Below are positions 22,018-42,951 of a stretch of DNA of 64,000 nucleotides, one piece after another. The DNA comes from Aquimarina macrocephali JAMB N27 (GTDB lineage: Bacteria > Bacteroidota > Bacteroidia > Flavobacteriales > Flavobacteriaceae): positions 1 through 64,000 of the forward strand of contig NZ_JACA01000013.1 of NCBI RefSeq assembly GCF_000520995.1, in the 5' to 3' direction. The notes beneath the pieces were generated by a model. That model saw only the letters and a list, made by a program, of their open reading frames with translations. It did no database searches and was not told the DNA's origin. Position 1 is the stretch's first letter. Every line of letters begins with the position of its first letter. Position numbers and translations under genes: made by a program.

Positions 22018-22050
22018 TGTATACTGATAACTACCCGTTATCAGTATACA
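22018..22050. other. strong hairpin in operon gap
   Basis: Perfect inverted repeat with 14-bp arms (TGTATACTGATAAC and its complement) around a 5-nt loop TACCC, in the 216-bp gap between the LolA-like and GMC genes. On the minus strand, the direction of the operon, it is not followed by a T-run; on the plus strand it is followed by T-rich sequence. It could be a pause or processing site, or a plus-strand terminator for antisense transcription. An operon with a dedicated NusG-like factor is a natural place for such a site (inference). Confidence 0.7.
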
Positions 22051-22158
22051 TTTTACTTTTGACTATCAGCCTATTACATCAAATGGTTTTATAACCTGAC
22101 TATACATTCTAAAGTTTACTATCGCTCCTTTTGTCAAGCTTTTTATATATCTGTATTA

Positions 22159-23046
22159 CTATTTTAAGTTATTACGAAGTCTGATTAAATTCCGTTCTCT
22201 AAACGTAAAATCTTCCAAAGTCCTTGTACTTAAAAAATCATCCGAAATTTCTTGATCAAAGGCTACCGAAATCATATTCATGATACTTATCGTGCGAGTG
22301 GCAAGGTTATTTATAGTTAATCGCCTTGCGATCCAAACGTTATCAATTTCTTCAATTTTTGACATGGTCATCTGTTTATAATGGTCTCCATGAACATATA
22401 AGTTCTTCTTTAAACTGATATATCTTTCTTTATCTATCCATGATACTGTTTTACTATATTTTGATTTTTTCGCCCTTTCTGCTGTAGGCGTATACTCAAT
22501 AACCCAGACCTCACGTCCCTTATAGCTTTCTTCTTTCAAAATCTTGAAATTATATTCATCAACTTTTAAGTCCTCCATATCTTCAAGAGAGAATTCAGAC
22601 CCAAAAAAACTTCCGCTACTATCATTACTATCACTGCTCGATGCCAGGCGCTTAACTTTACTCAATTCTGGCAAATAGATCCAACTATCGTTATCCTTGC
22701 CAAGCTCACCATACTCATAGGTCAACATACCTACTCCCTGTTCTTTTTTAGGTTCAATTATAATGGAGACCGATCGGCTATCCTGATGGTTTTCTCCATA
22801 ATTTTTAGCAACACTCTCCAGCAATTTCTTTCTTGCTTCTTCGGTGCATACAATTCTTTTATTTGATACAGTATATTTACAGGTCGATAATTTTATTCTC
22901 TGAACTGATGTGTTAAAGGATTCTTTGGCTACTTTTTGCACCTTTATCATGATATCTTTTGCCGACTGGGTTGGCAATATCTTTTTTGAAAACGACGATA
23001 TCAAAACGGTCACAACAACCAATAAAACAATCTGCTTTTTTTTCAT
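22159..23046 (-). CDS. LolA-like outer-membrane lipoprotein-sorting family protein
   Basis: 295 residues with an N-terminal signal peptide (KKKQIVLLVVVTVLISSFSK). The body has the signature of the LolA-like family usually annotated 'outer membrane lipoprotein-sorting protein': WIYLPELSKVKRLAS, a Ser-rich stretch, then FFGSEFSLEDMEDL and KGREVWVIEYTP. Proteins of this type are commonly encoded beside RND/MMPL exporters and are thought to carry a lipophilic cargo across the periplasm. Here the gene directly follows the MMPL gene in the operon (269-bp gap), which supports a joint export route for the polyketide or a lipid conjugate. The cargo is inferred. Confidence 0.8.
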   Translation of the reverse strand: MKKKQIVLLVVVTVLISSFSKKILPTQSAKDIMIKVQKVAKESFNTSVQRIKLSTCKYTVSNKRIVCTEEARKKLLESVAKNYGENHQDSRSVSIIIEPKKEQGVGMLTYEYGELGKDNDSWIYLPELSKVKRLASSSDSNDSSGSFFGSEFSLEDMEDLKVDEYNFKILKEESYKGREVWVIEYTPTAERAKKSKYSKTVSWIDKERYISLKKNLYVHGDHYKQMTMSKIEEIDNVWIARRLTINNLATRTISIMNMISVAFDQEISDDFLSTRTLEDFTFRERNLIRLRNNLK

Positions 23047-23210
23047 TATTTATTTATTTAGGTTGAAAAAAATTTTAATAATAAACTATAAGGTTAAACA
23101 ACCTTTGCTACAGATAATCAAACCATATCCACAAGAGTAATACGTTGTTGGTCTTGGCTCCTTTAAACAAAAGCCAAAAGAAAACACCGGTTGCTCTGGT
23201 TGTTCTCCTA

Positions 23211-23226
23211 TTGGTCAAATGACCAA
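23211..23226. other. short palindromic hairpin TTGGTC-N4-GACCAA
   Basis: Six-base arms around AAAT in the 269-bp gap between the MMPL and LolA-like genes. The arm TTGGTC also occurs in GGTTGGTCA repeats in the leader of the operon (about 43083, 43279 and 43392). No T-run follows on the minus strand, so it is not a convincing intrinsic terminator. The function is unknown. Confidence 0.4.
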
Positions 23227-23315
23227 AATGGTTTTCCATTTATTACCTTGTATTAAGTCAAATTATGTAAATACTGGAGGGTTTCCATTTTACCTTTTTA
23301 TGACTTTACTTAGAG

Positions 23316-25985: not shown

Positions 25986-28900
25986 CTAATGCTTTTGAAG
26001 TACTTTTTGCTTTATGGTAGGTTTCTTTGATGTAGTCTTATTGAAAAAAGCATTTATTTTTCTAGCAATTTTTTTGCTATTATCCTTATCAATAATTGAA
26101 AAATGGTTAGCGTCAATAGGGTTGATAAGGACAGGCTTATGCAGTAATTCATTCCAACCATAATCTTCAGGAGCATTTTTATATACATCTGTATAACCCT
26201 CTGTGGCTTTAAAGAGTAATATTTCTACTTCTTCTGGTAATTTTGAAGGTTCATAAGCACGGCAATATTTATCATTGGCGATCGTGGTATAGATACTTGT
26301 AGCCAATTGTTCTTTCGGAAAATTAAACCCCAGATCCTTGACGTTATCATATATATAATCAACAATTTCATTTTCAGAAACCTGCTTAAGTTGCTCTGCA
26401 TCCAAGATCACATTCTGGCCAGATGCGTTAATGAAGATAGATTTAATCCCCTCTACTAAATCATCAATCATATGACCACTTTCCTTTGTAGGAGACATAC
26501 AGTCTACAAGTATTAAAGCTTCTACGGTTTCTTTTTGATCTAATAAAATCCTAGTCATTTCATAGGCAATTGTACCACCATTAGAAAATCCTAATAAACG
26601 ATACGGACCAGTTGCCTGTACTTCTTTAATCGCTTCTATATTGGCTTTAGCTATAGCCTCTACACTATCAAGTGTAGTATTTTCTTTTATAATCCCTACC
26701 GGTTCTAAACCATAGAATGGTTGTTTTATCCCCAATGCTGAAATAAGATGTTGCAGGGTTATTACGTTCCCATCTGCACCAGGAACTGCAAAAACAGGTC
26801 GTTTCTTACCTTTTACTTGCATGGGCACCAATGTTTTGCGCATCAATTTAGATACTACCTCGTTAGGTTTTGATTCTGTTTTTCCTATACTTTTGCTCTC
26901 ATACTCCTTATCATTAGTAACTTGTATTTTTTGAGCTTTTTCCAAATAGTTCTCCACTAAATATTGGGTAAGGGTTTTAATTTCTGAATTATTGAATAAA
27001 ATAGCTGGTGATATATTAATTTCCAATAAATCATTGACTTGAGCGATCATGGTTATCAGACCAATAGAATTCATCCCCAGGTCTAAAAAACTGCTATCAT
27101 CAGGAATTTTTTCAATTGGTTTGTTTATTTGAAGTGATATCTCATGTTTCAGAAAAAGCTCTATTTTTTCGGCGGGTTTCATGAGATTATTTTCCACACC
27201 GTTATCAGACCTGAAAAAGAACCACTCAGCCTGTATGGGATTTTCGTTAATTACTTCAATCTCGTTATCTTTTATACTTTTTGGTACTGATTGTTTTTCC
27301 TTAGCCTCTGATTTTTCTATAGTACCTATATCGATCCAATATTTCTCTTTAGCAAAAGGATAATCTGGTAAGGATACTAAGCGCGTATTTTTGTCTTTCC
27401 AAACTTTTGTCCAATCTATAAGAAGACCACTAGTCCAAAGTTGTGCAAGTTGCTCCCACTGCGAAGCCTTTAAACTTTGTTCAATCATGGTACTTATCAT
27501 ATCTTTTGTTAAGATTTTGATTATTCCATTTTCTTTATTGAGATTGATATTTCCATAAAAGATTCCTTCCTTTTCCAGCGATATTTCCTTATCTGAATTT
27601 TTGACCATGATCAACTTTTCAAGCAAATCTGCATGCGAGGAAGCTACTATGGATAACCTTTCATCCATGGCATCACGACCTACCTGCAAAGTATAGATCA
27701 AATCCTCAAAAGATAAATCAGCTTTAGTATTAGATAAATAATCAATGTAGCTATCAATGTATTCATTCAAACGTTCATCATCTTTCGCAGAAAGAATAAA
27801 TAACTGAGATGATGTGGTAGTTTCTATTTTGGATACAGGCTCTTTAGTAGGGTATTCTTCCAAAACGATATGCAAATTAACTCCGCTATCTGCAAAGGAA
27901 TTAAGTCCTGCTCTAATTGGAGTATCATTATGTTTGCGTAACATATCAAAAGGCAACTCCTTATTAGCTATGTATAAAGGATGAGACGGGTTATCAATAT
28001 CTAGAAAGGTGTTTATCTTTTTCCCAGATATGGTCATTGGAAACTTTTTATGATACAGTGAAAGTGACAGTTTAATAAAGCTAGCCAATCCACTAACGGC
28101 TTCCAGATTTCCTATATTTCCTTTTACACTACCTAAAGCGCATTTTTTTTCTTTTGATTTATCTCCTATAAATGCATTTTTAATCCCCTCGTATTCAAAG
28201 GAATCTCCCCATTTTGTGGCATATCCATCAACTTCGATGTAGTTTATTGACTCAGGGGTTATTGCGGTTTTTTTATAGCAGTTGGTTATGACATTAGTAA
28301 TCGCCTCATGTTTAACTTCTGACAAAAATCTGGCATTACCTCTATTGTTCTGATGACTGCCTTTGATAACACCATAAATTCTATTATTATCTCTTTTGGC
28401 ATCATCCAATCTTTTTAAAACAACTGCCGCCACCCCTTCTCCTCGGGTAAAACCATTAGCATCATCATCAAAAACTCCACACGTTCCGGTCGGTGATAAC
28501 ATACCATATTGTGATAATGAGATGTAGTCATCTGCAAATAAATTTAAAGACACACCTCCTACGACCGCTGTACTACTTTCATTATTGAGCAATGAGTAAT
28601 ATGCTCGATTAATCGCTACTGCAGAACTGGCACAATTAACATTTATTGACTCACTGGGACCACAAAAATCAAATAAAAATGAAAGCCTGTTTGCCAGGTA
28701 ATATGTAGGGCTTGAAGACGTGAAAACAGGTCCATATTTGCCTACCTGTATTTTATTTATGTTCTTTCTTAGATAATTTTCATATTCTGAGTATTCATAT
28801 GCAACATATATAGCCGTATCAGATCCGGCTAATTTTTTAGGCGCTATCCCGGCATCCTGAAATGCTTTATAGACTTCTTGCATCAGCAACCTCTCCTGAG

Positions 28901-29783
28901 GGTCTATTAATATCGCTTCTTCTGGGTCAAGGTTAAAAAATTTCGGATCGAAACAATCTACATTATTGATCAATGCTCCCCATTTAGAAACAGTCTTACC
29001 TGGAGATGTTAATTCTTGATAGTAATCTTCCCAATTCCATCTTGACTTTGAAATTTCCTGAATGCTATTTTTGTTATTCATTAGGTTTTCCCAAAATGTC
29101 TGAATATTAGGGGCATCCGGAAAATTACAGCTAAGACCTACAATGGCTATATCGCAGGTTTGGGATGATGGTTTAGTTGTTACTTTTGCAACAGGCATCT
29201 GTTTTTCTATTCCATTGAAGTCGTTCTCATTACTTTGATGAAGATTGTTGTAATAATCCATCATATCATCAATATGATGAGTCAATAAAACGTCAACAAT
29301 TTCATCAACCGACCTAAATGAACGGTATGATAGATCTATATTATACCTTTGATTTATAAAATGTAATAACTCATGATAGGATTCCTTGACCGATCTTCTA
29401 TCCCTAAATTTGCGACTTCTTGCCGAGACAGAATTAATACCTTTTTTAACCGAAGTACTTTTGGTTCCTAATTCTTTTTGTGTTTCTGATGGGTTATTTG
29501 TATCGGATATGTTGCCGATATTATCATTATTCACAGGAATTATTTCTTCTTCCAGTAAATCAGCCAGTTCTTTAGTAGTATTTACATTTACAAATTTTGA
29601 AGGAGATAGTGTAATACCGAAGTTATGGGATATTTTATTGATCAATTCCATAGAAATAATAGAATCAATACCAAAATCTTCGAACTTGGCATTAACATCT
29701 AGTTTCCCTGCAGGAAGCCGCAATGTTGCTTCAAAAATCTTTGTAATCTCTTGTAAAATATTCTGAGTTGTTGCTACCGTCAT
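25986..29783 (-). CDS. terminal PKS protein: ACP, degenerate KS, ACP, thioesterase
   Basis: 1265 residues. ACP 10-80 (FGIDSII, Ser about 39). Residues about 130-165 resemble the second half of a carrier domain without its Ser helix (YNIDLSYRSFRSVDEIVDVL). KS 209-638 keeps the active-site Cys (NVNCASSAVAI, about 384) but lacks both catalytic His: HGTGT reads DGYATK and NIGH reads NIGN. ACP 875-945 (LGMNSIG). Type I thioesterase 981-1244 with GFSNGG (Ser about 1067), Asp in LVDCMSP and His in DANHFSII. The start ATG overlaps the aminotransferase stop by 4 bp (ATGA), so the two are translationally coupled. The TE marks this as the last protein of the assembly line although it is encoded mid-operon. 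The KS probably passes the chain on without elongation (inference). Confidence 0.92.
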   Translation of the reverse strand: MTVATTQNILQEITKIFEATLRLPAGKLDVNAKFEDFGIDSIISMELINKISHNFGITLSPSKFVNVNTTKELADLLEEEIIPVNNDNIGNISDTNNPSETQKELGTKSTSVKKGINSVSARSRKFRDRRSVKESYHELLHFINQRYNIDLSYRSFRSVDEIVDVLLTHHIDDMMDYYNNLHQSNENDFNGIEKQMPVAKVTTKPSSQTCDIAIVGLSCNFPDAPNIQTFWENLMNNKNSIQEISKSRWNWEDYYQELTSPGKTVSKWGALINNVDCFDPKFFNLDPEEAILIDPQERLLMQEVYKAFQDAGIAPKKLAGSDTAIYVAYEYSEYENYLRKNINKIQVGKYGPVFTSSSPTYYLANRLSFLFDFCGPSESINVNCASSAVAINRAYYSLLNNESSTAVVGGVSLNLFADDYISLSQYGMLSPTGTCGVFDDDANGFTRGEGVAAVVLKRLDDAKRDNNRIYGVIKGSHQNNRGNARFLSEVKHEAITNVITNCYKKTAITPESINYIEVDGYATKWGDSFEYEGIKNAFIGDKSKEKKCALGSVKGNIGNLEAVSGLASFIKLSLSLYHKKFPMTISGKKINTFLDIDNPSHPLYIANKELPFDMLRKHNDTPIRAGLNSFADSGVNLHIVLEEYPTKEPVSKIETTTSSQLFILSAKDDERLNEYIDSYIDYLSNTKADLSFEDLIYTLQVGRDAMDERLSIVASSHADLLEKLIMVKNSDKEISLEKEGIFYGNINLNKENGIIKILTKDMISTMIEQSLKASQWEQLAQLWTSGLLIDWTKVWKDKNTRLVSLPDYPFAKEKYWIDIGTIEKSEAKEKQSVPKSIKDNEIEVINENPIQAEWFFFRSDNGVENNLMKPAEKIELFLKHEISLQINKPIEKIPDDSSFLDLGMNSIGLITMIAQVNDLLEINISPAILFNNSEIKTLTQYLVENYLEKAQKIQVTNDKEYESKSIGKTESKPNEVVSKLMRKTLVPMQVKGKKRPVFAVPGADGNVITLQHLISALGIKQPFYGLEPVGIIKENTTLDSVEAIAKANIEAIKEVQATGPYRLLGFSNGGTIAYEMTRILLDQKETVEALILVDCMSPTKESGHMIDDLVEGIKSIFINASGQNVILDAEQLKQVSENEIVDYIYDNVKDLGFNFPKEQLATSIYTTIANDKYCRAYEPSKLPEEVEILLFKATEGYTDVYKNAPEDYGWNELLHKPVLINPIDANHFSIIDKDNSKKIARKINAFFNKTTSKKPTIKQKVLQKH

Positions 29784-31549
29784 ATCGTTACTTCTTTTTC
29801 CTGGAAATTGTTCAAATCAGAAATAATTAATTTCCTTAGTTTTTCCATTTGATCATTTTTTATAGATTCTTGCTCCGGATCGTTTCTCATATCGGGAATG
29901 TCCGGTATTGCCGACTGGATATTTTCTTCAATTTCATCTTCTTCAATACTATCAGACACATAAAAGAAATTTTCCTTCAACAGTGTATCAATGCTTTTCT
30001 TTACAATTCTTATAATGGATTTTATATCTTTATCGGAGTGAGCTACAGTAAGAAAACAATTGCCCGAAGGGCTGGTTTCGACACCATTCATTCTCATCAA
30101 TACGAAAACGAACTCCTTCACCACTCCATTGGGGTCATCTAGAAATTTAAACCTAAATAATGAGCTGAAATATTCAATTATCAATGGTACCTTTTTTACT
30201 TTAAAAAAAGAATTCAACTCTTCACACATGAGTCTAGTTTTTTCATTTAATTCTTGTAGAAAGCATGAGTTAGAATCACAAGTTTCATTTTCTGAGGTTG
30301 AACACCTTTTTTTAATTTCAGTGAGTATCGAAAGTGTAGAAGCTAGCTTAATAGGATTTCTTGTATGCGTCCCGGCCATAAGTGCTTTTTTAACACTCGG
30401 CATAGAGTTATCATCATAATCAAACACTCCACCGTCTACATAATTCATGTATTTAGTAAGTCCGGCGATCATTCCTGAAGGCATACCACCAGCAGGGATT
30501 TTTCCATAAGTAGCAAGATCTCCTTTAATCTTCCAAAGACCTTGCACTCCGTTACAACAAACCCTAAATCCAGTGATCATTTCATCCATAACCAACAAGA
30601 TGTTTTTTTCAAGGGTCAGCTTACGTACTTCTTTCAGGAAGTCAATAGGCTGGTTAGCCGGGTTTCTAGATTGTACTGGTTCTACCAAAACACCCGCAAT
30701 TTCATCTGCTCTATCTTCTATAATATTAAGGTCGTCCATGTTTCCGTAATCCAAGACAATAAGCTCATCGGCAAATTCCTGGATCATTCCCAGTCCCATT
30801 GCTATGCTATTGCCAAACTGATCTTTGGCTGCAAGTACTGTATCAGATAATCCATGATACGCTCCTTCAAAAATTACTATTTTTTTCTTTTGAGTAGCTG
30901 CTCGAGCTATCCTTATTGCCCACATAACTGCCTCTGTTCCGGATTGTGTAAAAAGAACCCTTTCATGGCCTGTAAGTTCACTAAAAAGTTTGGTTGCCTG
31001 AGAAAGCTCTTCTGTATACCCTACCAAAGGATACCCTTTATCCAACCGTTTTGAGATAGCCTCTTTTATAAAGGCTGGTTGATGACCAAATAAGTTAACC
31101 CCATTATCACTGGCTATATCAATATATTTATTATCGTCAATATCATAAAGATATGCTCCATCACCCTTACTATAAGTTAGATGAAATTGTAAACGCTTTA
31201 AGGCTTTTTTCAATCCTCCAGTTCTTCTTTGATCTACAAAATACTCCTGGCACTTAGATGCGTTCTCTTTGGATTTAGGTGCAGTTCTTTCTAGTTTCTG
31301 AGCCATTTGATCAATGAATCCCTTATGTTCTTCATTTAATTGAAGCTCGGTCACTGCTTTAAGTGTATTATCTTTTTTATCAGAAAAATTATTCTCCACC
31401 ATATTCACACTATTTGATAAATGTGTTTTTAGTTTAGAAACCATATAATTTTTCTCATTTTCAGGTAATTCTTCAAAGAATTTTAAAGCTTCTTTCTTCT
31501 CTATTTTCTTTGAAACAATCTTTTCCAATATATCGTCGATTACTGTCAT
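29780..31549 (-). CDS. PKS-associated class III aminotransferase with docking segment
   Basis: 589 residues, longer than a free-standing class III aminotransferase (about 430). Residues about 1-35 (EKIVSKKIEKKEALKFFEEL) match PKS docking helices, and a linker leads to the PLP domain at about 120. Family motifs: FTQSGTEAVMWAIRIAR, FEGAYHGLSD, VMDEMITGFR, and TYGKIPAGGMPSG with the PLP Lys near residue 349; it is closest in style to glutamate-1-semialdehyde aminomutase-like domains of PKS/NRPS lines. It lies between the PKS ending in KS-DH* (16-bp gap) and the ACP-KS*-ACP-TE protein (4-bp overlap). The likely reaction is conversion of a beta-keto thioester on a carrier to a beta-amine, as in the AmT domains of iturin/mycosubtilin synthases. 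The amino donor cannot be read. Confidence 0.9.
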   Translation of the reverse strand: MTVIDDILEKIVSKKIEKKEALKFFEELPENEKNYMVSKLKTHLSNSVNMVENNFSDKKDNTLKAVTELQLNEEHKGFIDQMAQKLERTAPKSKENASKCQEYFVDQRRTGGLKKALKRLQFHLTYSKGDGAYLYDIDDNKYIDIASDNGVNLFGHQPAFIKEAISKRLDKGYPLVGYTEELSQATKLFSELTGHERVLFTQSGTEAVMWAIRIARAATQKKKIVIFEGAYHGLSDTVLAAKDQFGNSIAMGLGMIQEFADELIVLDYGNMDDLNIIEDRADEIAGVLVEPVQSRNPANQPIDFLKEVRKLTLEKNILLVMDEMITGFRVCCNGVQGLWKIKGDLATYGKIPAGGMPSGMIAGLTKYMNYVDGGVFDYDDNSMPSVKKALMAGTHTRNPIKLASTLSILTEIKKRCSTSENETCDSNSCFLQELNEKTRLMCEELNSFFKVKKVPLIIEYFSSLFRFKFLDDPNGVVKEFVFVLMRMNGVETSPSGNCFLTVAHSDKDIKSIIRIVKKSIDTLLKENFFYVSDSIEEDEIEENIQSAIPDIPDMRNDPEQESIKNDQMEKLRKLIISDLNNFQEKEVTI

Positions 31550-31564
31550 GACTTTACTTTTCCT

Positions 31565-34500
31565 TTAGTATACATCTTTTAATAATTTATCAAAACTAGC
31601 ATCAGAATCCACTATCTCAGCGTATTCTGTCTGGTTTGAATCATAATTTTGCACGGCATTTACTAACATTTCAAAATTCTTATATGAACCTTTAATCGAT
31701 CGTTTATGTAAGGTGTTGTCAAATGCCAGAGACTTCATCTTAATACATACCTTACCCGATTCATCAGTAAGATCAATATCCACTTTAACCGTATTATCCT
31801 CTGGTTTGCTTCCTTTTGAATAACGAACCCAGGCGTACAATTCTCTATCGCAGGGAGAAAATAATGTCATAGATCTTATTCCGAATGGTAATAAGGGTTG
31901 GTTTAATTGCGGATCCAGATCGGTCAATAAGCCAATTGCTAATTGAAATGAGCTTTCCAGAATACTTGGATGAAGAGTATAACTTTCATAATTATCTTCT
32001 ACAGTTTTTGGTAAACTTAACCGAGCAAGTATTTGATCTTCTCCCTTATAAAAGGCTTTTATTCCTTTAAGAGAAGGACCATAACTCATATCCATCTGCT
32101 CTAAAATGTCATACAGTTTTTCAGGATCCAGTGGTTCTGCTGCGAAGTGAGTTTTGAGTTGCATTATATCAAGTTTTGTTGAAGCCTGATCTCTTCCTGG
32201 TGCAACTTGTCCTTGACAATGAATTATTTCTTTTTCTCCTTCAGTACTATAAATTTCATAGTCAACTCCTTTGTAATCATTTTCAAAAAGGGATATGTTG
32301 ACTTCCCTTTTTTCTTTAAAAGTAAGCAGGTGTTCCCATGAAGTATTTTGTAACTCCAGAATTATCGATTCATTAAAATCTGGCATCGCTTTTTCTACTG
32401 CTACATAGGCCATTTCCAAATAGGTAGTAAGAGGCATCACATTTTGCTCTTGTATCTTATAATCTTTTACAAAAAATTCTTTGCCACTGAAGATTGAAGT
32501 ATAGCATTGCTGACTTAGTGTCGAAGAATTATAATGTAACAACGGATGAAGTTTTTCAAATTCTCCATTAGATTTTGACTTTTCACTATCAGCCAGATTA
32601 AACCAGTATCTCTCACGTGCAAAAGGATATGTTGGCAAACTAATGCGTCTGGGGATTGCCTCTTTATAAAGTTGCATCCAATCAATATTAATGCCTTTTA
32701 CCCAAGCTTCAGTTAAGTTAGAATAACTCTTATCCCTAAAGTACTTGTCTATTAGTGTTTCTGAAGAGTCATTATTTCCTTCTGAATCTATAAAATCTGA
32801 ACTGTTATTTTGTTTAACCCTTCCGTAGAAAACATCTTCTATATTTTCTTTTTGACTTAGATAAACGGAAAGTTTTTCTTTCAATTGTTCGGTTGAACTT
32901 ACAACTAGTCCCAAACGTTCAGCCATCTCATCCCTACCGATTTGTAGTGTAAAAGCAAGATCCGAAAGATTATCATTATGTTTTTCTACGTGGTCGTATA
33001 ACAATTGAGCATATACTTTAAGTCGATCTTCGGTTTTTGCAGAAAGCACAATGATATGTGGTTCCTTTGATTCAACTGGTGAATGATCTTCTTTCGGAAT
33101 ATATTCTTCTAAAACGATGTGAGAATTTGCTCCGCCAAAACCAAAAGAGCTTACTCCCGCTCTTCTGGGTAAGGTATTATCTTGATCATCTTTTATAGTT
33201 TCCCAGTTCTGTGTTTTATCCACGATGTACAGCGGACTTCCTTTAAGGTTGATGTATGGATTAAGTTCTTCAAAGTGGAGTGTTCCTGGTATTTTTTTAT
33301 GCTTTAGAGATAACAATACTTTCAGAACACCAGCTATTCCAGCAGCAGTCTCTAGATGACCAATATTAGTTTTTACAGAGGATAAACCACAATGAGGAGT
33401 TTCTGCTGAAGCTTTATTATGCTTTTTATATAATTCTGAAAATGTTTTATTCAGAGCCTGAATTTCAATAGGATCGCCTAAACTGGTACCGGTACCATGG
33501 CATTCGATATACCCAATTGTTGAGGGGTCAATATGAGCCTTTTCATAGGCTTCAACCAGCAAATCAGTTTGGGCTACAGGATTAGGAGCCGTAAGCATGG
33601 TAACTTTTCCTCCATGGTTTTCGGTAGTTGCTTTTATAACTGCATAAATATGATCTCTATCAGCTTCTGCTTTATCCAGAGGTTTAAGGAATATAGCTCC
33701 TGATCCCTCCCCTCGCACATATCCATTTGCACTCTTATCAAAGGTTTTGCATTTCCCATCACCGCTTAGCATACCTGCCATCCCAAATGAAATATAAGCT
33801 GCTGGGGTAAGCATTAACTGTACTCCTCCGACTATTGCCATATTACAACTTCCTGTATGTATCGATTCTATTGCCCTATGGATTGCAATCAAAGAACTGG
33901 AACATGCTGTATCAAGTGGAGCACTAGGCCCACGAAGGTTTAATAGGAAAGAAACCCGGTTAACCAATACAGAATGGGAGTTTCCTGAAGCGGTATATCC
34001 ATCAAGCGGAATTTGATTATCTACTAATGAATCTGCATAATCTCTAGTCGCTACGCCAACAAATAGCCCTGTTTTGGTACCTGACAGGTCAGAAACTTTA
34101 TGCCCCGAATCCTCAATAGCTTTCCAGACGGTTTCTAAAAATATTCGTTGCTGTGGATCCATCATTTCTGCTTCTCTAGGAGAAATTCCAAAGAATGATG
34201 GATCAAACTTATCTACGTCATTCATAAAACCTCCCCATTTAGAGTTGGTCTTATTTTTCTCCTTAAAAGGATCTCCGTCGTAATCTTCCCAATTCCAACG
34301 GTCTTCAGGAATTACAGAGACTAAATTCTTTTCGTTTTCCAGGTTTTCCCAAAATTCCTCTAAATCTTTTGATCCTGGCATAACCCCGCTCATTCCAACT
34401 ATAGCGATCGGCTGATCAATAAAACGGCTTTCTGTGGATAATCCAATTCCCGAAGTTTGAGTATGTGATTGTTGATCCGATGCATTGCCATTCCATCCTT

Positions 34501-37500
34501 TATCAATGTTAAATACAACTCTCTCCCCATCAACATATTTTTCTTTTTCCGTTGAAGATTGAGTTGCTTCTTTCTTGGTGTCTGATGAAGTAGAAGCACC
34601 TGAAATTTTATGAACACCCAGTACTTCATTTTTATGTTCTCTCGAGAGAAATGTTGCGATTTCCTTAATCGAAGGATATTCAAAAAAGAGTACTGGAGTT
34701 ACATCCAGTTTATAAAATTCATTGATTCGGTTTGCATAAGTTGTTAGACCTATGGAATCAAACCCCAGATCTAATAATATTTTGTCGTACGAAATATCTT
34801 CTGGATCCAGTTTCAATAATTCCATAACGATTTCAGATAGTGTACCCCGAACTATCGTGAACAATTCTTTATCTGCCTTTTGATCCACCACCTGTACTTC
34901 AGAATCAAGTGAGGTTACATCGCTTGATGATACAGGTTCAGAAATTTTCTTCTCATTAATGCCCCAGGCTCTTTCTATTTTTTCTTGTATTCCTTCTAAT
35001 ACTATGAATTGAGTTTTTTTGGCATGAAGACCTTTCTCAAATGCTTCCAGGCCAGTTTCAATACTTAAAGGTTTTATTCCCAGATTCTTTTTGAAGAAGA
35101 GTTCAGTTTGTTCATCCAATTTCATTCCTCCATCTGCCCACAAAGACCAATTAAGGCTTAGTGTTACTCCTGATCGTTCTCCCTTTTCCTGTAACGATTT
35201 TCGTTTACCGGCAAAGGAATCCATAAAGTGATTGGCAAATGAATAATCACACTGGCCTGCATTTCCTCCAACTGCTGCAAGGGATGAAAACGTCACAAAA
35301 AAGTCCAGGTTTTCATCTTTGGTTACTTCATCCAAATGGAGAGTTCCATATACCTTAGGAGCAAAAACCGCTTCCATTTCTTCACGTGTTTTATTTCTTA
35401 TGTATGAATCTCTTAAAACACCTGCACTGTGAATGATTCCGTTGATTTCTCCAAATTTTGATTTCGTCTTTTTAATAAGGTTCTCAACATCTTTATGGGT
35501 AGAAACATCTGCTGACATATACATTACCTCGGCACCGGTTTCATTTAATTCATCTAACTTGGCTTTACGTTCACTCGAGAGTTTAGATCTACCAGTAAGC
35601 ACCAATCGCGCTTTACATTGAGTGGCTAAATATTCAGCAAAAATGAGCCCCAATCCTCCTGCTCCTCCGGTAATAATATATACGCCTTTTTCTTTCAATC
35701 CCAAACCATCGGTAGGGCCAGAACCTTTAGCTTGGAGTAGAGAAAATTCTTTTACTTTTCTGATATAACGTTCTTCTTCCTGGTAACGAATAGTCATCGC
35801 ACTAAAAGTATCAGGATGCAACTCTGTCAAAACTATATCCAGGATTTTATCATAAGAACTCTTTGACTGTTGGATTTCCAAGATCTTGCAATACAGTTTT
35901 GGATGTTCCATCTGAAGGGTTTTAGCAAATCCATTCATTGCTTCATGATGCGGTTGGATACTATCATTTTGCCCTAAATACAGATATAATAATTGAACAT
36001 TATCGAGCTTTTGTTCGATCAGCGATTGGCATAGGATAAGGAAGGAGTAAATGCCTTTATTAAACGATCTACCTAAAAACCCTTCGTTATACTCGCCTTC
36101 TTCTTTTAATGCTATATCTATTGGCCACGCAAAACATATTTTCTTGATAATATCCTTATTCAAAGCTTCAAAAAGATTCTTAAAATCCTTATCATTTTGT
36201 GGATTAATCTTGTACCTCTGATCACTTAATTTCTCATAAGAATCTCCAGGTTCGACCAGTATAATATCGTCATCCTTCTTAAATCGATTTTTATAAACTT
36301 TTCGGAGTTTTTCATCTGGACTAAAAAGTAAAACAGGCCCTGATTCATCAAGTGTTACTTTTTCTTGTTCTAATGAAGATTCGTGCCATTCGTGAGAATA
36401 ATACAGTTTTGAATATTCTTCTTCTTTGGTCTGATCCGGCTTTTCGTGAACACTAACAAGTGGAACTCCTATAGACTCCCTAATTTTTACTAGGATCATT
36501 CCGTTTTCATCCACAATAAAAACATTCACCTTAGATACTTTAGAACCAGGGTTATTTACCTTTTTGACATAACTAAAACATTTTGATTTTAGTGGTTGCA
36601 TAATTTCGACTTCGCCAATTGAGTACGGTACAAACATTTCTCCGGTTTGTGCTCCTAATTGTGCTGCCATACCTGCTTGGAAAGAACCATCCACAAGGGA
36701 AGGGTGAAGCAGATAATCATTAAAATCGTTGTTTCTGATTTCTGGAATAAGAAGTTCTCCTAATATTTCATCGTCATTTTTGAAAATATCCTGAAGCACC
36801 TGAAAACTTGGCCCCAAATCCAGTCCCAGTGATTTAAAAAGTGGATATGCTTCCTTTCCATTGGTAACTTTTGAACATCTCGTACGAATTTCTTCTAAAT
36901 CTATATATTCGGGTACTGCAGTCAACTCCTGATGGGTTGCGTATAGAAGTTTCCCTTGCGAATATATCTGCTTTGCATTATTTTCTTCTTCACTAAATAC
37001 TTCAAAATGTACAGATTCTCCATTAGGTTTCAGTTCAATAAATACTTCTCTGGGAGCCGAATCAACTACCGTGAGTGGACTTAACCAGAGGATATTTTTA
37101 ATCATTTGAACTTTTCTTCCCGTCGCAAGTTCTCCGGCTTTTCTTGCAAAATCCAGATAAGCAACACCTGGTAAAGTTGGGATCTCCGATACCAGATGAT
37201 CATATATAAAGAAATCCCTGTCATGAAAAGTTTTCTTGAAAACCTGTCTTTCGAATGTCGATTCATTAGAATCGATTAACGGATGAAGGGCTGTGGTTGA
37301 ATGTAAGGTAAGGTTAGATGATTCTGAAGTATCATCAGAAATCCAGTGTCGCTTATCTGCAAAAGGGTAAGTTGGCAAAGAAATCTTTACTCCTTTTTCC
37401 AGAGCTTGTATTCCTTGCCAATCTGCAAGAAATCCAACACTCCAGAGTTGGGCTAGTTTACTTAAATCTCCACTCTGAGATAAGAATTTAATAAACTCTT

Positions 37501-40500
37501 CTTTCTCCTTACGATTTAATAAACGTGTAATATTTTGACTGTTTTTTACTTCTCCAACATGCATCGTATTGTCTTGCTTGCCGTCAATAAATGAAGTAAG
37601 TTTTTGAACCAGTTCTTTTTTTGTTTTTGCAATAATAACCAGGCGATGATCAAAAGATTTTCTTCCTATTTGTAAAGTATGAGCTATATCTTTACTGTTA
37701 AGTAGTTCTTCTTCTGATAAATCTTTCTGAAGGAATGTGCGCAAGCGAACTGCTGTTTCCCGAAGTTGATTTTCATTTCTGGCCGAAAGCGGAAAGATAT
37801 ACTCTTTAAATTTTGAAGGTAATTCTTTTTGTTGCTCAACTGGAGTTACGTATTCTTCAATGATAATATGTGCATTGGCTCCTCCTGCTCCAAAAGAACT
37901 AATTCCTGCTCGAAGAGGGTATTGAACACCATCAATTTCCTTAGGTTTCCATTCTTTAACCGTTTGCTCTACATAGAAAGGTGAATTTTTAAAATCGATG
38001 AAAGGATTTAACTCAGAAGAATGCAGGGAAGGAACAAGTTTTCTATGTTTCATTTGCAAAAGTACCTTGTGCAATCCTACGATACCCGCTGCGGCTTCAA
38101 GGTGCCCAATATTGGTTTTTACTGAACCTATAGAGCATTCTTGTTTATCTACATTATATTCCTGAAAGGCAGTATTTAAACCCGAAATTTCGATAGGGTC
38201 ACCTAGTTCTGTCCCTGTTCCGTGCGCTTCTACATAACCAATGCTTCGGGCGTCAATTTTTGCATTCTCTAATGCTGCAGTAACTACCTGTGCTTGTGAT
38301 TTAGGACTGGGCACCATAAATCCACTGGTTTTTCCACCATGATTGACGGCGATACCTTTGATCACTCCGTAAACATGATCTCCGTCCTTTACTGCTTTAT
38401 CAAGAGGTTTAATATAAACGGCACCAACGCCTTCACCAGCTACATAGCCGTTAGCACCTTTACCGAAGGTACGGCATACGCCATCTGCTGAAAGTGCTCC
38501 TCCACTTTTATTAATATCTATTTTACTTTGATGTACATCAAGATTAACTCCTCCTACAATGGCGCCAGAGCATTCTCCTTTATAGATTGCTTCACAGGCC
38601 AGATATAATGCACTTAGACTCGAGGAGCAAGCTGTATCTATAGGTAAACTCGGGCCAGAAAGGTTAAAAGCATACGACACGCGATTGGCAATGCCCCATA
38701 AATGTGAACTGGGACTAACAAAATTCCCTTTTAGTTTTTCTTCTGTACCGACCACCTGATAAAGTGTCCATACTGCTCCTACATAAACTCCTATATTTCG
38801 GGGAGCATTGTCGTCTATTAATGTTTCTGGGTAATAACCAGCATCTTCGAGTGTTTCCCAGGCCACTTCAAGAAAAAGCCTTTCCTGAGGATCCAGATAT
38901 TCTGCTTCTCTAGGAGAGATATTAAAAAACAGCGAATCAAATTTGTCTACATCATCGATGAATCCTCCGCGGTATTTCTCTGAAAATTTATTATGAAGGC
39001 GTTGCTCAAAACGGGTATCGGGGATATCTTCAACACAATCTCTTCCTTGAACCAGGTTGTTCCAGAATTCATTCATGTTTTTGGCCTTAGGGTAACGGCC
39101 GGCTATCCCAACAATAGCAATATCTCCTGTTTGGTAAGGTTTATTACTTTGTATACCCTCATTTGCCTCAGTTTCCTTTACCTCAATATCTAGATCAGTT
39201 TGTGTAGATTTTTCTTTGGTTGCCGAATCTATTGAAGAGGCTCCAGAATTAAGTGTTTTTGAAACTACTTCTCCAGAAGGGTTATGATATTTTTTGAGTT
39301 TAAAATTGGTATAGATATTCCCAAATGTTTCTGATTGATTTTCCTCTGGTAAGATCTCAGAGATATTATTTTTTTTCTTAAAGGCTTTAATCAACCTATT
39401 GGTGATTTCCTCTATTTTTTCATGTTTTAAACCCACCGGAATGGCCAAGCGCACCAGATTATTAATTTCTGTGTCTTTTTGCATTCCTACATTATGAGCC
39501 CCTGCACGAATCCCAGTATTTAGATATAACCAGGATACAAATGACGCTACAGGGTACTTAAATGATTTAAATTCGGGAACCTGTTTAACATCAATCAATA
39601 TACAGTGTCCTAATGCTGGTTGTACGACAGGAATTCCTTGTTGTTTTAAAACTCTCCAGATTGTCCGTACAGATTGTAGTCTATTACGAACTCGAGTCTC
39701 AATTTTATTCTTGTTATGAAAGGATAACGCAATGACTTTTTTATCGATTACATCAAGCCCAATGCTTTCTTCCTGAACAAAATTTTGAATTTTATTGTAG
39801 AGTTCAACATCATTTGTACCGATCAATCCTCCTTTGTCTACACAAAAATTCTTAGCCAGACTTGTAATTATAGCATCTGCATAAGAGGTCATTTCCTTTA
39901 CTACATCCCAAACATTTTTACCGATAAATTCGTTTTCATGTTCCAAGATAAATAAAGCATTTTCTACAATTCTTGTAGTATCAAAAACAAGAGGAATTGC
40001 ATATTCTGAAAGGAAATTTTTAACTTGTTTGAGATGCTGTAAGGATACTGGCGCTCCGCCGGCTGCATTATCATTCATCTCGATAAAAACAAAAGCCACA
40101 GACTTAGGATCTTCTTCTACTTGCTTTTTAAGAGTCTCCCAATTTAGGTTTCCTTTATATTGTTCTTCAGAATCTAGTCTGTACACCTCGGGATGTGGTA
40201 GCTCTATTGGTGTAAATCCATTTTCAATCTGATGGAAAATCGTGGTAGGAAAAAGCAAATTCTGAAGTACTTTCCCTTTTTTAGGCCAAGATTTACAAAA
40301 AGCGCGTTCTGCAGTGCGACCAGCAGTAGTTAACGTAAAATAAGAAAATGGGAAAATACTTTTTAAGCTCTCGACCAAATCTACCGGTTGTTGAAGCTGC
40401 GTATACAAAAAGCCTAACTGGTTTTGAATAGCGGGTAACTCCAATTGAGCCCACGAGTCGGTTTTCAGATCAAACGTAACCTGATCATCTGGAATATTCA

Positions 40501-42106
40501 ATGGGTTATAACCATACTCTGATAACATAACAGATCGCTCTTCTCCTTCAATCACCAATCTGTGTTTCTCTTCCTGTTCATTTCCTTTAACCTGATTAAA
40601 TTTTCCAATTGTATTTGATGTATCCTGTTTCCTTGTTTTTAGTTCTGATGCAGCAGCTTGCTTATTTAATTTGGAGAAGGTGTGATTTTCTTCATCTGAA
40701 GTTTGCATTTTCATTGGATCTGCAATCATCATAATAATGTCGGTTACATTATCAGGGTTGCTTCCTACAGGCCTAGAAAGAAATACAGTATTATGCTCTG
40801 GTCTAAATTTATTTTTGAACTGTAAATTTCCTTCATCATTAAAAATATTTTGCCCACGCAGATAATCCAGTGTTTTGTCCAGTTCAGAATCTGCATTTGA
40901 TGAAGAGTCTAGTTTACAACCATACGTACCTCCTAAACTTAAAGTGGTATACTCTTCGTCTTCTAAAATTTTGATAATATTCACGATTGCAAATTCTAAT
41001 CCTCCTAAGGGCATATCCTTTGGGTAGAATTCTAAATCCATTAAATACCCATTTTCTTCTGATGACAATCTTGAAATAAGGATTACGTTCTGTAGGACAT
41101 CGTCAAGATATGTTAGAAAAAGCCTGTGTTCTACACTTAAATTACCAGATAGAATTTCTTCTTTAACCATATAGATGAGTGGGTTAACCATTGTCCTGGG
41201 GGCGCACCATTCATCTATAATTCTGGCAATATTTTTATCTATCTTTTTATTAGAACCATTCTGGTATTCTTCGGTTCTGCATTTTCCTGTCCTTTCAAAC
41301 TTTGATACCTGATAGCGTAAACGACGCATCTTGCTTCCTTGAAGCGTGAAGTTTTTTATATTTACCCTTGACAAAACGCCAAAGGGAGTAGCAGTAAATA
41401 AAACTCCTCCAATCGAATCTATTTGTTCGACTGTGAAAAGGTTGAGTTCAAAATCATTTTTGGTACAGTATTGATATATTTCTTCTGTAATAATGGGTAG
41501 ATAATCTTTGGCTCCTGTATAGCTATATACTAATATGATATCCTTATAACGGCTATAGTTAAAGTATCCCTTTTTATCGGCGCCAATAAAAAGATTAGGA
41601 GCTATATTCCTTGTACCTCTTGATGCAGAACCTTCATTCTTATGTTGATTAAAAAGCTTTTTTACTAATTCCTGTAACTCAGGATGTTTAATAGCTTCTT
41701 TTTCTAGTATAAGAATGGCCGTTTTTTGCGAAGTATTTTTTAATTGATTGTTAACTACTTCCGAAATTTCTTCGGTAGAATTTAATGTTTCCTCATCAGA
41801 ATGCTCGGTTACATAACTATCATCTCCTTCTTTCTTAAATTTTTCCTGAAGTACCTCCTCATATTTATCAACGAAATAATTACTTAAATCACCAATATTG
41901 AAATTTTCGAAAAGTAAAGTTTTTGGTAAAGTTCCAAATTCCTCTTCTAATTTCTTAATAATCTGCAGAATACGAAATGAATCAATCCCTAATTCCTGAA
42001 ATGGAGTAGAAATACAATTATCTCCTATTGATATTTCAGCAATTTCGGATATAAGAGATGTAAGATAACTCTCTGTTGATTCTAATAGTATTTCTTTATC
42101 TATCAT
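31565..42106 (-). CDS. trans-AT PKS with DUF2156 and PLP C-S lyase (SH-like) didomain
   Basis: 3513 residues. ACP 10-85 (LGIDSFRI). Residues about 180-445 match the GNAT-like C-terminal domain of MprF/DUF2156 proteins (FTLQGSKMRRLRYQVSKFER, MDLEFYPKDMPLGGLEF, LSLGGTYG, LQFKNKFRPE). Residues about 530-905 match the beta-eliminating lyase family (tryptophanase, tyrosine phenol-lyase): GGAPVSLQHLKQV, FDTTRIVENALFI and SLAKNFCVDKGGLIG, with the PLP Lys (about 751) in the register of the family SxKKDxxxNxGG. Then KS 995-1418 (TACSSS, EAHGTGT, NIGH); DH 1612-1875 (DHLVSEIPTLPG, VDGSFQ); KR 2142-2318 (TGGAGGLG, GVLRDS suggesting B-type); ACP (LGFDS); KS 2564-2999 (TACSSS, ECHGTGT, NIGH); DH 3189-3462, degenerate (Tyr for His, Glu for Asp). 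It ends SFDKLLKDVY, a possible short docking helix. ACP-DUF-lyase order equals the leinamycin LnmJ DUF-SH arrangement, so sulfur insertion is predicted. Confidence 0.94.
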   Translation of the reverse strand: MIDKEILLESTESYLTSLISEIAEISIGDNCISTPFQELGIDSFRILQIIKKLEEEFGTLPKTLLFENFNIGDLSNYFVDKYEEVLQEKFKKEGDDSYVTEHSDEETLNSTEEISEVVNNQLKNTSQKTAILILEKEAIKHPELQELVKKLFNQHKNEGSASRGTRNIAPNLFIGADKKGYFNYSRYKDIILVYSYTGAKDYLPIITEEIYQYCTKNDFELNLFTVEQIDSIGGVLFTATPFGVLSRVNIKNFTLQGSKMRRLRYQVSKFERTGKCRTEEYQNGSNKKIDKNIARIIDEWCAPRTMVNPLIYMVKEEILSGNLSVEHRLFLTYLDDVLQNVILISRLSSEENGYLMDLEFYPKDMPLGGLEFAIVNIIKILEDEEYTTLSLGGTYGCKLDSSSNADSELDKTLDYLRGQNIFNDEGNLQFKNKFRPEHNTVFLSRPVGSNPDNVTDIIMMIADPMKMQTSDEENHTFSKLNKQAAASELKTRKQDTSNTIGKFNQVKGNEQEEKHRLVIEGEERSVMLSEYGYNPLNIPDDQVTFDLKTDSWAQLELPAIQNQLGFLYTQLQQPVDLVESLKSIFPFSYFTLTTAGRTAERAFCKSWPKKGKVLQNLLFPTTIFHQIENGFTPIELPHPEVYRLDSEEQYKGNLNWETLKKQVEEDPKSVAFVFIEMNDNAAGGAPVSLQHLKQVKNFLSEYAIPLVFDTTRIVENALFILEHENEFIGKNVWDVVKEMTSYADAIITSLAKNFCVDKGGLIGTNDVELYNKIQNFVQEESIGLDVIDKKVIALSFHNKNKIETRVRNRLQSVRTIWRVLKQQGIPVVQPALGHCILIDVKQVPEFKSFKYPVASFVSWLYLNTGIRAGAHNVGMQKDTEINNLVRLAIPVGLKHEKIEEITNRLIKAFKKKNNISEILPEENQSETFGNIYTNFKLKKYHNPSGEVVSKTLNSGASSIDSATKEKSTQTDLDIEVKETEANEGIQSNKPYQTGDIAIVGIAGRYPKAKNMNEFWNNLVQGRDCVEDIPDTRFEQRLHNKFSEKYRGGFIDDVDKFDSLFFNISPREAEYLDPQERLFLEVAWETLEDAGYYPETLIDDNAPRNIGVYVGAVWTLYQVVGTEEKLKGNFVSPSSHLWGIANRVSYAFNLSGPSLPIDTACSSSLSALYLACEAIYKGECSGAIVGGVNLDVHQSKIDINKSGGALSADGVCRTFGKGANGYVAGEGVGAVYIKPLDKAVKDGDHVYGVIKGIAVNHGGKTSGFMVPSPKSQAQVVTAALENAKIDARSIGYVEAHGTGTELGDPIEISGLNTAFQEYNVDKQECSIGSVKTNIGHLEAAAGIVGLHKVLLQMKHRKLVPSLHSSELNPFIDFKNSPFYVEQTVKEWKPKEIDGVQYPLRAGISSFGAGGANAHIIIEEYVTPVEQQKELPSKFKEYIFPLSARNENQLRETAVRLRTFLQKDLSEEELLNSKDIAHTLQIGRKSFDHRLVIIAKTKKELVQKLTSFIDGKQDNTMHVGEVKNSQNITRLLNRKEKEEFIKFLSQSGDLSKLAQLWSVGFLADWQGIQALEKGVKISLPTYPFADKRHWISDDTSESSNLTLHSTTALHPLIDSNESTFERQVFKKTFHDRDFFIYDHLVSEIPTLPGVAYLDFARKAGELATGRKVQMIKNILWLSPLTVVDSAPREVFIELKPNGESVHFEVFSEEENNAKQIYSQGKLLYATHQELTAVPEYIDLEEIRTRCSKVTNGKEAYPLFKSLGLDLGPSFQVLQDIFKNDDEILGELLIPEIRNNDFNDYLLHPSLVDGSFQAGMAAQLGAQTGEMFVPYSIGEVEIMQPLKSKCFSYVKKVNNPGSKVSKVNVFIVDENGMILVKIRESIGVPLVSVHEKPDQTKEEEYSKLYYSHEWHESSLEQEKVTLDESGPVLLFSPDEKLRKVYKNRFKKDDDIILVEPGDSYEKLSDQRYKINPQNDKDFKNLFEALNKDIIKKICFAWPIDIALKEEGEYNEGFLGRSFNKGIYSFLILCQSLIEQKLDNVQLLYLYLGQNDSIQPHHEAMNGFAKTLQMEHPKLYCKILEIQQSKSSYDKILDIVLTELHPDTFSAMTIRYQEEERYIRKVKEFSLLQAKGSGPTDGLGLKEKGVYIITGGAGGLGLIFAEYLATQCKARLVLTGRSKLSSERKAKLDELNETGAEVMYMSADVSTHKDVENLIKKTKSKFGEINGIIHSAGVLRDSYIRNKTREEMEAVFAPKVYGTLHLDEVTKDENLDFFVTFSSLAAVGGNAGQCDYSFANHFMDSFAGKRKSLQEKGERSGVTLSLNWSLWADGGMKLDEQTELFFKKNLGIKPLSIETGLEAFEKGLHAKKTQFIVLEGIQEKIERAWGINEKKISEPVSSSDVTSLDSEVQVVDQKADKELFTIVRGTLSEIVMELLKLDPEDISYDKILLDLGFDSIGLTTYANRINEFYKLDVTPVLFFEYPSIKEIATFLSREHKNEVLGVHKISGASTSSDTKKEATQSSTEKEKYVDGERVVFNIDKGWNGNASDQQSHTQTSGIGLSTESRFIDQPIAIVGMSGVMPGSKDLEEFWENLENEKNLVSVIPEDRWNWEDYDGDPFKEKNKTNSKWGGFMNDVDKFDPSFFGISPREAEMMDPQQRIFLETVWKAIEDSGHKVSDLSGTKTGLFVGVATRDYADSLVDNQIPLDGYTASGNSHSVLVNRVSFLLNLRGPSAPLDTACSSSLIAIHRAIESIHTGSCNMAIVGGVQLMLTPAAYISFGMAGMLSGDGKCKTFDKSANGYVRGEGSGAIFLKPLDKAEADRDHIYAVIKATTENHGGKVTMLTAPNPVAQTDLLVEAYEKAHIDPSTIGYIECHGTGTSLGDPIEIQALNKTFSELYKKHNKASAETPHCGLSSVKTNIGHLETAAGIAGVLKVLLSLKHKKIPGTLHFEELNPYINLKGSPLYIVDKTQNWETIKDDQDNTLPRRAGVSSFGFGGANSHIVLEEYIPKEDHSPVESKEPHIIVLSAKTEDRLKVYAQLLYDHVEKHNDNLSDLAFTLQIGRDEMAERLGLVVSSTEQLKEKLSVYLSQKENIEDVFYGRVKQNNSSDFIDSEGNNDSSETLIDKYFRDKSYSNLTEAWVKGINIDWMQLYKEAIPRRISLPTYPFARERYWFNLADSEKSKSNGEFEKLHPLLHYNSSTLSQQCYTSIFSGKEFFVKDYKIQEQNVMPLTTYLEMAYVAVEKAMPDFNESIILELQNTSWEHLLTFKEKREVNISLFENDYKGVDYEIYSTEGEKEIIHCQGQVAPGRDQASTKLDIMQLKTHFAAEPLDPEKLYDILEQMDMSYGPSLKGIKAFYKGEDQILARLSLPKTVEDNYESYTLHPSILESSFQLAIGLLTDLDPQLNQPLLPFGIRSMTLFSPCDRELYAWVRYSKGSKPEDNTVKVDIDLTDESGKVCIKMKSLAFDNTLHKRSIKGSYKNFEMLVNAVQNYDSNQTEYAEIVDSDASFDKLLKDVY

Positions 42107-42363: not shown

Positions 42364-42951
42364 CTACTTTTCTTTAACTGTACAGGGACTATTTACTTTT
42401 TGTAAAATATTGGTACAAACATTAATAAACACTGTATGGTTTATTTCTTTGAGACGAATCCCAAATCTTGTTTTACCTTTTTCCTGTACCAAAATGCCTT
42501 CGTGCCCGGTTAAAGGCCCGTGAACAATTTTTACTTGCTCTCCTTCGCAAAAAATAGTTTCGACAGAAACATCTTGTTCAAGTAATAGCATTTTTTTAAT
42601 AGTATTTATATCATTTGGTGGAATGACGGAAGGATTTTGTCCACATTTAATATATGTAGCTATTTTGGGAATTCTGGAGATATCATATATCTCGCTCATT
42701 TTAGTATTTACGAAAATATAGCTTGGAAAAAGTGGAGATTCTATGAGTTTTTTCTGTCTATTTTTCCAAACTTTTAATGTTTTAGTCAATGGAAGAAACG
42801 CATCATATTCTCTTGCTAAAAGATCGTTGTATACTATTTTCTCGGCACGTGGTGAAGTATAAAAAACATACCAGTTTTTTTCATTTCTTTTTCTTCTTCT
42901 CTCCAGTACCGTTCTCGGATATATGGTCTGATTAGGTTTAGGTGTATTCAT
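42364..42951 (-). CDS. NusG-like specialised transcription antiterminator (UpxY/LoaP type)
   Basis: 195 residues. The N-terminal NGN domain starts with NWYVFYTSPRAEKIVYNDL (about 26-44) and continues PLFPSYIFVNTK; the C-terminal KOW domain is EGEQVKIVHGPLTGHEGIL (about 146-164). The housekeeping NusG of Bacteroidota is a different, longer protein; short NGN-KOW paralogues at the head of polysaccharide (UpxY) or polyketide (LoaP) operons act as operon-specific processive antiterminators. This is the first gene of a minus-strand operon of at least 42 kb, 257 bp upstream of the PKS genes, exactly the expected position. It probably acts on RNA polymerase to suppress premature termination. The gene's own leader and first codons are duplicated upstream (42928-43318). 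Confidence 0.88.
   Translation of the reverse strand: MNTPKPNQTIYPRTVLERRRKRNEKNWYVFYTSPRAEKIVYNDLLAREYDAFLPLTKTLKVWKNRQKKLIESPLFPSYIFVNTKMSEIYDISRIPKIATYIKCGQNPSVIPPNDINTIKKMLLLEQDVSVETIFCEGEQVKIVHGPLTGHEGILVQEKGKTRFGIRLKEINHTVFINVCTNILQKVNSPCTVKEK

Follow-up and report, generated by a model that had tools for sequence, protein, structure and literature searches.

The 64,000 nucleotides analysed here, called the window in what follows, are positions 1-64000 of contig C13 of the Aquimarina macrocephali JAMB N27 genome and contain part of a trans-acyltransferase (trans-AT) polyketide synthase (PKS) cluster, the rest of which is found on contigs C45 and C85. The subject is the beginning of one of its PKS genes, pksA, where an acyl carrier protein (ACP) domain is followed by a DUF2156-family domain (DUF) and by a pyridoxal phosphate (PLP)-dependent lyase-like domain (SH). 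This is a real and typical non-leinamycin DUF-SH module of a known family; it likely adds a thiocysteine-derived hydropersulfide (-SSH) or thiol (-SH) on the beta carbon of an unsaturated polyketide chain bound to its own N-terminal ACP, the ketosynthase-dehydratase (KS-DH) half of the module being presumably on another protein of the cluster. The domains of pksA, which include a ketoreductase (KR), are the following.

31565..42106, minus strand: pksA, the whole PKS open reading frame (ORF), 3513 aa (ORF translation, Pfam)
41870..42064, minus strand: N-terminal ACP, residues 15-79, proposed carrier for the sulfur addition (Pfam, ACP tree)
40697..41611, minus strand: DUF (DUF2156/LPG_synthase_C; MprF-type tandem-GNAT fold), residues 166-470 (Pfam, fold)
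39410..40483, minus strand: SH, PLP-dependent (thio)cysteine lyase-like, core residues 542-899 (Pfam, PDB match, tree, residues, fold)
39851..39853, minus strand: codon of the PLP Schiff-base lysine, K752 of pksA, equivalent to K257 of tyrosine phenol-lyase (TPL) (residue alignment)
37847..39115, minus strand: first KS, 3' of SH, residues 998-1420, Cys-His-His kept (domain search, residues)
36473..37288, minus strand: DH, residues 1607-1878 (domain search, alignment)
35093..35698, minus strand: KR, residues 2137-2338 (domain search)
34646..34840, minus strand: second ACP, residues 2423-2487 (domain search)
33098..34402, minus strand: second KS, residues 2569-3003, Cys-His-His kept (domain search, residues)
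31721..32551, minus strand: terminal DH-like domain, residues 3186-3462 (domain search, alignment)

The interval 39395-41560 corresponds to pksA residues 183-904 and is inside this single ORF. Pfam gives the order PP-binding, LPG_synthase_C, Beta_elim_lyase, KS, DH, KR, ACP, KS, DH, with LPG_synthase_C (DUF2156 family) matching residues 173-443 (E 1.5e-16) and Beta_elim_lyase residues 575-873 (E 5.3e-23). An earlier sequence-only reading of this DNA had described an ACP with the LGIDS motif, then a DUF2156-like domain, then a PLP lyase domain with the motifs GGAPVS, FDTTRIVENALFI and SLAKNFCVDKGG; all of these are seen in pksA by Pfam and in the sequence, LGIDS being residues 39-43. The two further KS modules that it placed after the didomain are also present, and the next PKS protein brings a third KS. 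In the terminal DH-like domain the catalytic His is changed to Tyr and the Asp to Glu (aligned in the homologue of another genome, G458; the window ORF has DYKIQ and LES there), and this domain is probably inactive.

The best PDB match of SH is 9cen, a PKS thiocysteine lyase domain (E 7.2e-54). A scan of named genomes, one per species, found 54 DUF-SH loci; after removal of those without a well-covered SH, 50 SH rows entered the phylogenetic analysis, to which the window and 9cen were added, together with 18 usable free-lyase loci out of 19 and one TPL fragment. The PKS-embedded SH domains are separated from free TPL and tryptophanase with support 100/100, and the window SH is placed among those of Bacteroidota; long actinobacterial and free branches meet in this tree, where the 41 non-actinobacterial rows are jointly supported by 84/89. 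Alignment to TPL reveals that the PLP-site residues K752, D709, R712, N680 and F619 are each kept in 32 of 32 SH rows, as is G596, while R597 is found in 27. The position of TPL Arg381 is His871 in the window, and His is present there in all 32 rows and in 9cen; embedded PLP lyases lacking Arg381 have been noted before (PMC3870968). Fold and PLP site match those of GnmT-SH, whose structure is solved. GnmT, LnmJ and WsmR, the thiocysteine lyases of the guangnanmycin, leinamycin and weishanmycin systems, have the identical domain pair in the same order behind an ACP, and didomain identity to the aligned actinobacterial loci is 34-37%. Thus tree, PLP-site residues and fold uphold the assignment to the leinamycin-type DUF-SH didomain; clustering of SH with free amino-acid lyases and loss of PLP-site residues were both looked for and did not occur. 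A free-type tryptophanase or TPL fused to the PKS by chance is ruled out by the same tree and residue alignment.

A search with residues 165-905 gave 453 proteins at E<=1e-3, which, together with the 9cen match, puts the didomain far beyond chance. Among the best 120 of these, SH is followed by a KS in all 120 and the ACP directly precedes DUF in 118; the position before further KS modules, which the sequence-only reading had contrasted with that in LnmJ, is observed and is the usual layout among relatives. Eleven of the 12 actinobacterial loci in the named scan have KS-ACP-ACP-DUF-SH in one protein, near its end, and the twelfth is truncated. In 36 of the 42 non-actinobacterial loci (Bacteroidota, Pseudomonadota and Acidobacteriota), ACP-DUF-SH-KS opens one ORF; the remaining 6 have the domains distributed among adjoining ORFs or reach a contig end. 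Differently from the actinobacterial leinamycin-type module, in pksA ACP-DUF-SH opens the protein, KS modules come after it and the KS-DH is presumed to be elsewhere; the leinamycin-family layout KS-ACP-ACP-DUF-SH-TE in one protein is not found, since pksA has a single N-terminal ACP and no thioesterase (TE).

Proteins of this kind are already on record. Kordia algicida A9ECY5, from a flavobacterium, was listed by sequence and layout as CP-DUF2156-PLP3-KS-KR-CP-KS, and Lysobacter F8TUA6 has the same start, like that of pksA (PMC3870968, 2013, Table 2). Subsequently, 109 DUF-SH clusters were counted, among them three families outside the leinamycin one (PMC8479088, 2021), and the non-leinamycin modules were described as having one ACP and no TE (PMC7618002, 2024), in variable surroundings, like the window. 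Both the branch and the position are thus already known from the parts of these papers drawn on here, and the suggestion of a new, non-actinobacterial branch is not supported; in the same parts, no product is named for any non-leinamycin DUF-SH. Proteins other than A9ECY5 and F8TUA6, from Kordia antarctica (P0050) and Lysobacter enzymogenes (L080), have 59% and 50% didomain identity to the window. What the present analysis adds is the pairing of the split module, the affinity of its ACP and the fold of DUF, all discussed below.

Within the genus of the window DUF-SH is present in 9 of 66 genomes, and didomain identity across Aquimarina and Fulvivirga is 74-99%. A sample of the phylum gave a full-didomain match in one of 395 genomes, the window's own; the next best match (E 2.8e-48) covers residues 357-726 only, and the others, among the matches listed, lie in frames of about 456-900 aa, mostly of free-lyase size. 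Two lyase matches from other Bacteroidota, L033 (genome G050) and G058:C12:37883-38959, are in frames of about 900 aa, about twice the usual size, and are possible tryptophanase fusions. The gene for DUF-SH is often first in its cluster, and a role as loading module was considered; it is made unlikely by homologues suggesting a position near the end of the line, in which ACP-DUF-SH-KS-ACP is found with a thioester reductase (PF07993; for example P0037 and P0041) or a TE (PF00975; for example P0009 and P0016).

The N-terminal ACP of pksA has no Trp at position +6 after the Ser. In a tree of 74 ACPs over 65 columns, which are few, the 38 N-terminal ACPs form a group with the second ACPs of 10 actinobacterial tandem pairs (support 99/99), and the first ACPs of such pairs cluster with five from modules containing enoyl-CoA hydratase (ECH) domains (94/96, not starred); among these five, the +6 residue is Trp in one, from the giant protein described below, and Phe in four. 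A tree that joins the N-terminal ACPs to the first tandem ACP is 15.7 log units worse but is not rejected by the approximately unbiased (AU) test (p 0.116), nor is one that joins them to the ECH-module ACPs (p 0.065). A profile built on the N-terminal ACPs gives 34-44 bits to second and 16-24 bits to first tandem ACPs; three ordinary ACPs from the window cluster itself score higher, at 49-55 bits. In leinamycin systems, beta-branching occurs solely on the first tandem ACP and the site of sulfur addition was left open (PMC7618002). The resemblance of the single non-actinobacterial ACP to the second one favours sulfur addition on the second, a conclusion towards which the sequences lean, although it is not proven. 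In L082, L087, L089, L102 and L103, from Lysobacterales and Tahibacter, the sulfur-module ACP is a separate ORF of 111-146 aa just before DUF.

The other half of the module can be looked for in G458, where the cluster is continuous and the didomain is 91% identical to that of the window; the 15 KS-linker matches in its cluster, against 12 in the window genome, indicate that part of the cluster is missing from the assembly of the latter. The open ends of the G458 proteins can be paired: the KS-DH of the giant protein with the KR-ACP of the next one, the KS-DH of this with the following KR-ACP, the KS of the 4745-aa protein with the DH-KR-ACP of the 4617-aa protein, and the last KS-DH of pksA with the ACP of the TE protein. 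With these ends paired, the KS-DH end of the 4617-aa protein is left for ACP-DUF-SH. An Acidobacteriota locus, L095, has a PKS ending KR-ACP-KS-DH upstream of a hydroxymethylglutaryl-CoA synthase (HMGS) and ACP-DUF-SH; its terminal KS is 67% identical to the terminal KS of the 4617-aa protein (next best of 15: 49%), and its KS after SH is 70% identical to the first KS of pksA (next: 56%). By alignment, the terminal DHs of both upstream proteins keep the catalytic His and Asp, and the KS of the split module has an intact Cys-His-His. The KS-DH end of the 4617-aa protein is thus presumed to be the first half of a module that has ACP-DUF-SH as second half, and we infer that a KR module followed by KS-DH could supply the unsaturated thioester needed for conjugate addition.

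Tree, residues and fold of DUF-SH make a sulfur-bearing intermediate the best prediction. As judged from domain order, the preceding KR would leave a beta-hydroxy acyl chain, which the terminal KS-DH would hand to the ACP and dehydrate to the alpha,beta-unsaturated thioester. DUF would then add L-thiocysteine or L-cysteine to the beta carbon, a step that is only proposed in leinamycin systems too. By homology, the PLP-bound SH would cut the C-S bond of the cysteinyl group; the chain would retain -SSH or -SH, and the aminoacrylate set free would give pyruvate and ammonia; C-S cleavage by the SH domains of GnmT, LnmJ and WsmR was measured in vitro (PMC8479088). Finally, the next KS would take the sulfur-bearing chain, followed by the two KS modules, the aminotransferase and the TE protein.

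A different order of events would be the one published for leinamycin module 8 (PMC7618002), where the KS elongates, an HMGS cassette makes a carboxylated beta-branch and thiocysteine adds to the branched enoyl. The KS of the module is intact and a KR is absent from it; the cluster has an HMGS, one discrete ECH, a discrete KS and two discrete ACPs; and HMGS is above cut-off in each of the 34 DUF-SH genomes searched, which come from the 54 named loci, versus 4 of 14 control genomes. The intact KS and the constant HMGS speak for this reading. However, HMGS is presumably also required by the modules with in-line ECH domains, of which G458 has three triplets; the DUF-SH ACP groups with the second tandem ACP and not with the first, branching one, within the limits of the AU test given above; and the partner half has a DH with an intact catalytic pair, for which branching would have no need. 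We regard this order as unlikely for the window, and conjugate addition to the enoyl formed by the KS-DH half is preferred.

Another possibility, compatible with either enoyl route, is that SH is a plain cysteine lyase, in which case DUF would add cysteine and a thiol rather than a hydropersulfide would result. LnmJ-SH was initially demonstrated to be a cysteine lyase, and both substrates are cleaved by the three SH domains tested, yet the three measured prefer the thiocysteine adduct 50- to 106-fold (PMC8479088); no sequence feature examined tells the two substrates apart. Two cysteine desulfurase-like genes within the cluster, on C45 (L025:15124-17118 and L025:17969-19186, both on the minus strand), suggest persulfide handling. 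One product is NifS-like, with 405 aa, an SSGSACS motif and a TIGR03402 match (E 6.4e-115) below the model cut-off; the other is a SufS-like fusion of 664 aa with an RYGCHCA motif and about 240 N-terminal residues giving no Pfam match. A C_GCAxxG_C_C protein and a SAM methyltransferase accompany them on C45. Of the 27 DUF-SH genomes searched, only 6 have the fusion at full length, namely four of the genus Aquimarina, Fulvivirga marina and Chitinophaga varians; in the last two it adjoins HMGS. On balance the plain cysteine lyase is tenable but the less probable choice, and thiocysteine is favoured as the added group.

Some observations weigh against the proposed sulfur chemistry. The occurrence of the desulfurase fusion makes it an accessory of this cluster type and no general DUF-SH part. 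Near the cofactor, every one of the 32 SH rows has Pro in place of TPL T124, and the window has Ala in place of K256. With an intact Cys-His-His the KS may elongate, and without a KR the DH would then have no beta-hydroxyl to act on. The KS-DH partner lies on a different contig (C45), its order being deduced from G458 and L095; L095 is the one non-Aquimarina locus with the partner next door, and the fetched upstream stretch (<=10 kb) of the other non-actinobacterial loci contains no PKS ending in KS-DH. No assayed SH domain from outside Actinobacteria was found in the parts of the literature drawn on here.

It could also be supposed that DUF-SH is an inherited leftover, inactive in this line, as its restricted occurrence in the genus might suggest; to our knowledge, no sulfur is known in the product. 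Both the five PLP-site residues and the 55 columns that do not vary in 32 DUF sequences are conserved between Actinobacteria and Bacteroidota, and the didomain is well conserved across Aquimarina and Fulvivirga, so that this explanation appears highly improbable compared with a functional sulfur module.

DUF has the tandem-GNAT fold of the MprF-type aminoacyl-phosphatidylglycerol synthase domain. The DLMR motif of MprF is DLEF in DUF, with D, E and F invariant in 32/32 sequences, and the Arg of the motif is therefore gone; in the MprF family this Arg has a catalytic role. Thus, differently from the MprF-type synthases, which have a membrane part and the DLMR Arg, pksA DUF is without either. 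The fold points to the aminoacyl-tRNA transferase superfamily as a lead to the sulfur donor. Cysteinyl-tRNA synthetases have been reported to make thiocysteinyl-tRNA(Cys) (PMC5660078). It may be speculated, although we hold it very doubtful, that DUF is a repurposed aminoacyl-tRNA transferase using thiocysteinyl-tRNA(Cys) as donor for conjugate addition to the enoyl on the adjoining ACP, and that ACP-DUF-SH is a single cassette, transferable as a whole between leinamycin systems and Bacteroidota, whose ACP, corresponding to the second of the leinamycin tandem pair, would be the site of sulfur addition in every case.

The other cluster genes of the window are these.

42364..42951, minus strand: NusG-family gene directly upstream of the 10.5-kb pksA, same strand (Pfam)
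29780..31549, minus strand: class-III aminotransferase, 589 aa, next to pksA (Pfam)
25986..29783, minus strand: terminal PKS, ACP-KS-ACP-TE, 1265 aa (domain search)
19757..25895, minus strand: accessory genes, for a 276-aa protein without Pfam match, a GMC oxidoreductase, a LolA-like protein and an MMPL exporter (Pfam)
235..19524, minus strand: trans-AT PKS of 6429 aa with three in-line ECH domains, ending KS-DH without ACP (domain search)

NusG-family genes ahead of long synthase operons can serve operon-specific antitermination, and the one before pksA is placed in this manner. The KS of the terminal PKS, placed between two ACPs and before TE, lacks both active-site His (VDGYATK, NIGN). The three ECH-like domains of the 6429-aa PKS are consecutive in one module (protein residues 1165-1831); two more in-line triplets are found in G458, and the observation also takes in C85 (L027). 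C45 and C85 hold further PKS genes, HMGS, the discrete ECH, two acyltransferases, the discrete KS, two discrete ACPs and a phosphopantetheinyl transferase. On C45, L026:14160-15416 (minus strand; 411 aa in G458), flanked by a PKS with a KS at its end and a PKS that begins with DH-KR-ACP, encodes a protein without Pfam match, condensation-like by eye (HVVADG). In the window, an 85-aa ORF at 44669-44926 (plus strand), resembling the C-terminal portion of a short-chain dehydrogenase and probably a gene remnant (by eye), sits in a 2.6-kb stretch that has no ORFs of 100 aa; no Rfam family reaches gathering score between window positions 41900 and 45700.

Cuniculene has been reported from Aquimarina sp. 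Aq78, and its trans-AT PKS cluster is reported to be present in Aq78, Aq349, EL33, RHTr2 and A. muelleri. Carriers in the named-genome scan include Aq78, RhTr2 and A. muelleri; the Aq78 locus (L058) has 95% identity over pksA, and the DUF-SH DNA of genomes G428 and G412 is identical to the named loci of Aq78 and A. muelleri, respectively, which also puts the window, belonging to the same genus as these, in Aquimarina. G428 has 13 above-cutoff KS-linker matches on three contigs, corresponding to this cluster by ORF sizes, and one weaker match elsewhere; this search of the Aq78 genome gave no other large trans-AT PKS. The shared carriers and the lack of a rival trans-AT PKS in Aq78 indicate that the window cluster, homologous to the one of Aq78 in a different strain, probably equals the cuniculene cluster described in print or is closely homologous to it, and that its product is probably cuniculene or a congener. 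This link is weakened by two points: Aq349 and EL33 are not among the carriers in the named scan, limited to one genome per species, and the link comes from distribution and exclusion, not from the published cluster sequence.

A DUF-SH system with one ACP outside Actinobacteria offers a simpler setting for the question of first versus second tandem ACP, and the DUF fold offers a definite clue as to the sulfur donor; if the tRNA-dependent scheme were true, a persulfide-charged tRNA of translation would feed a polyketide synthase. Should the product be cuniculene, which a culturable strain has already yielded, this compound could be examined for sulfur or for a site from which sulfur has been lost.
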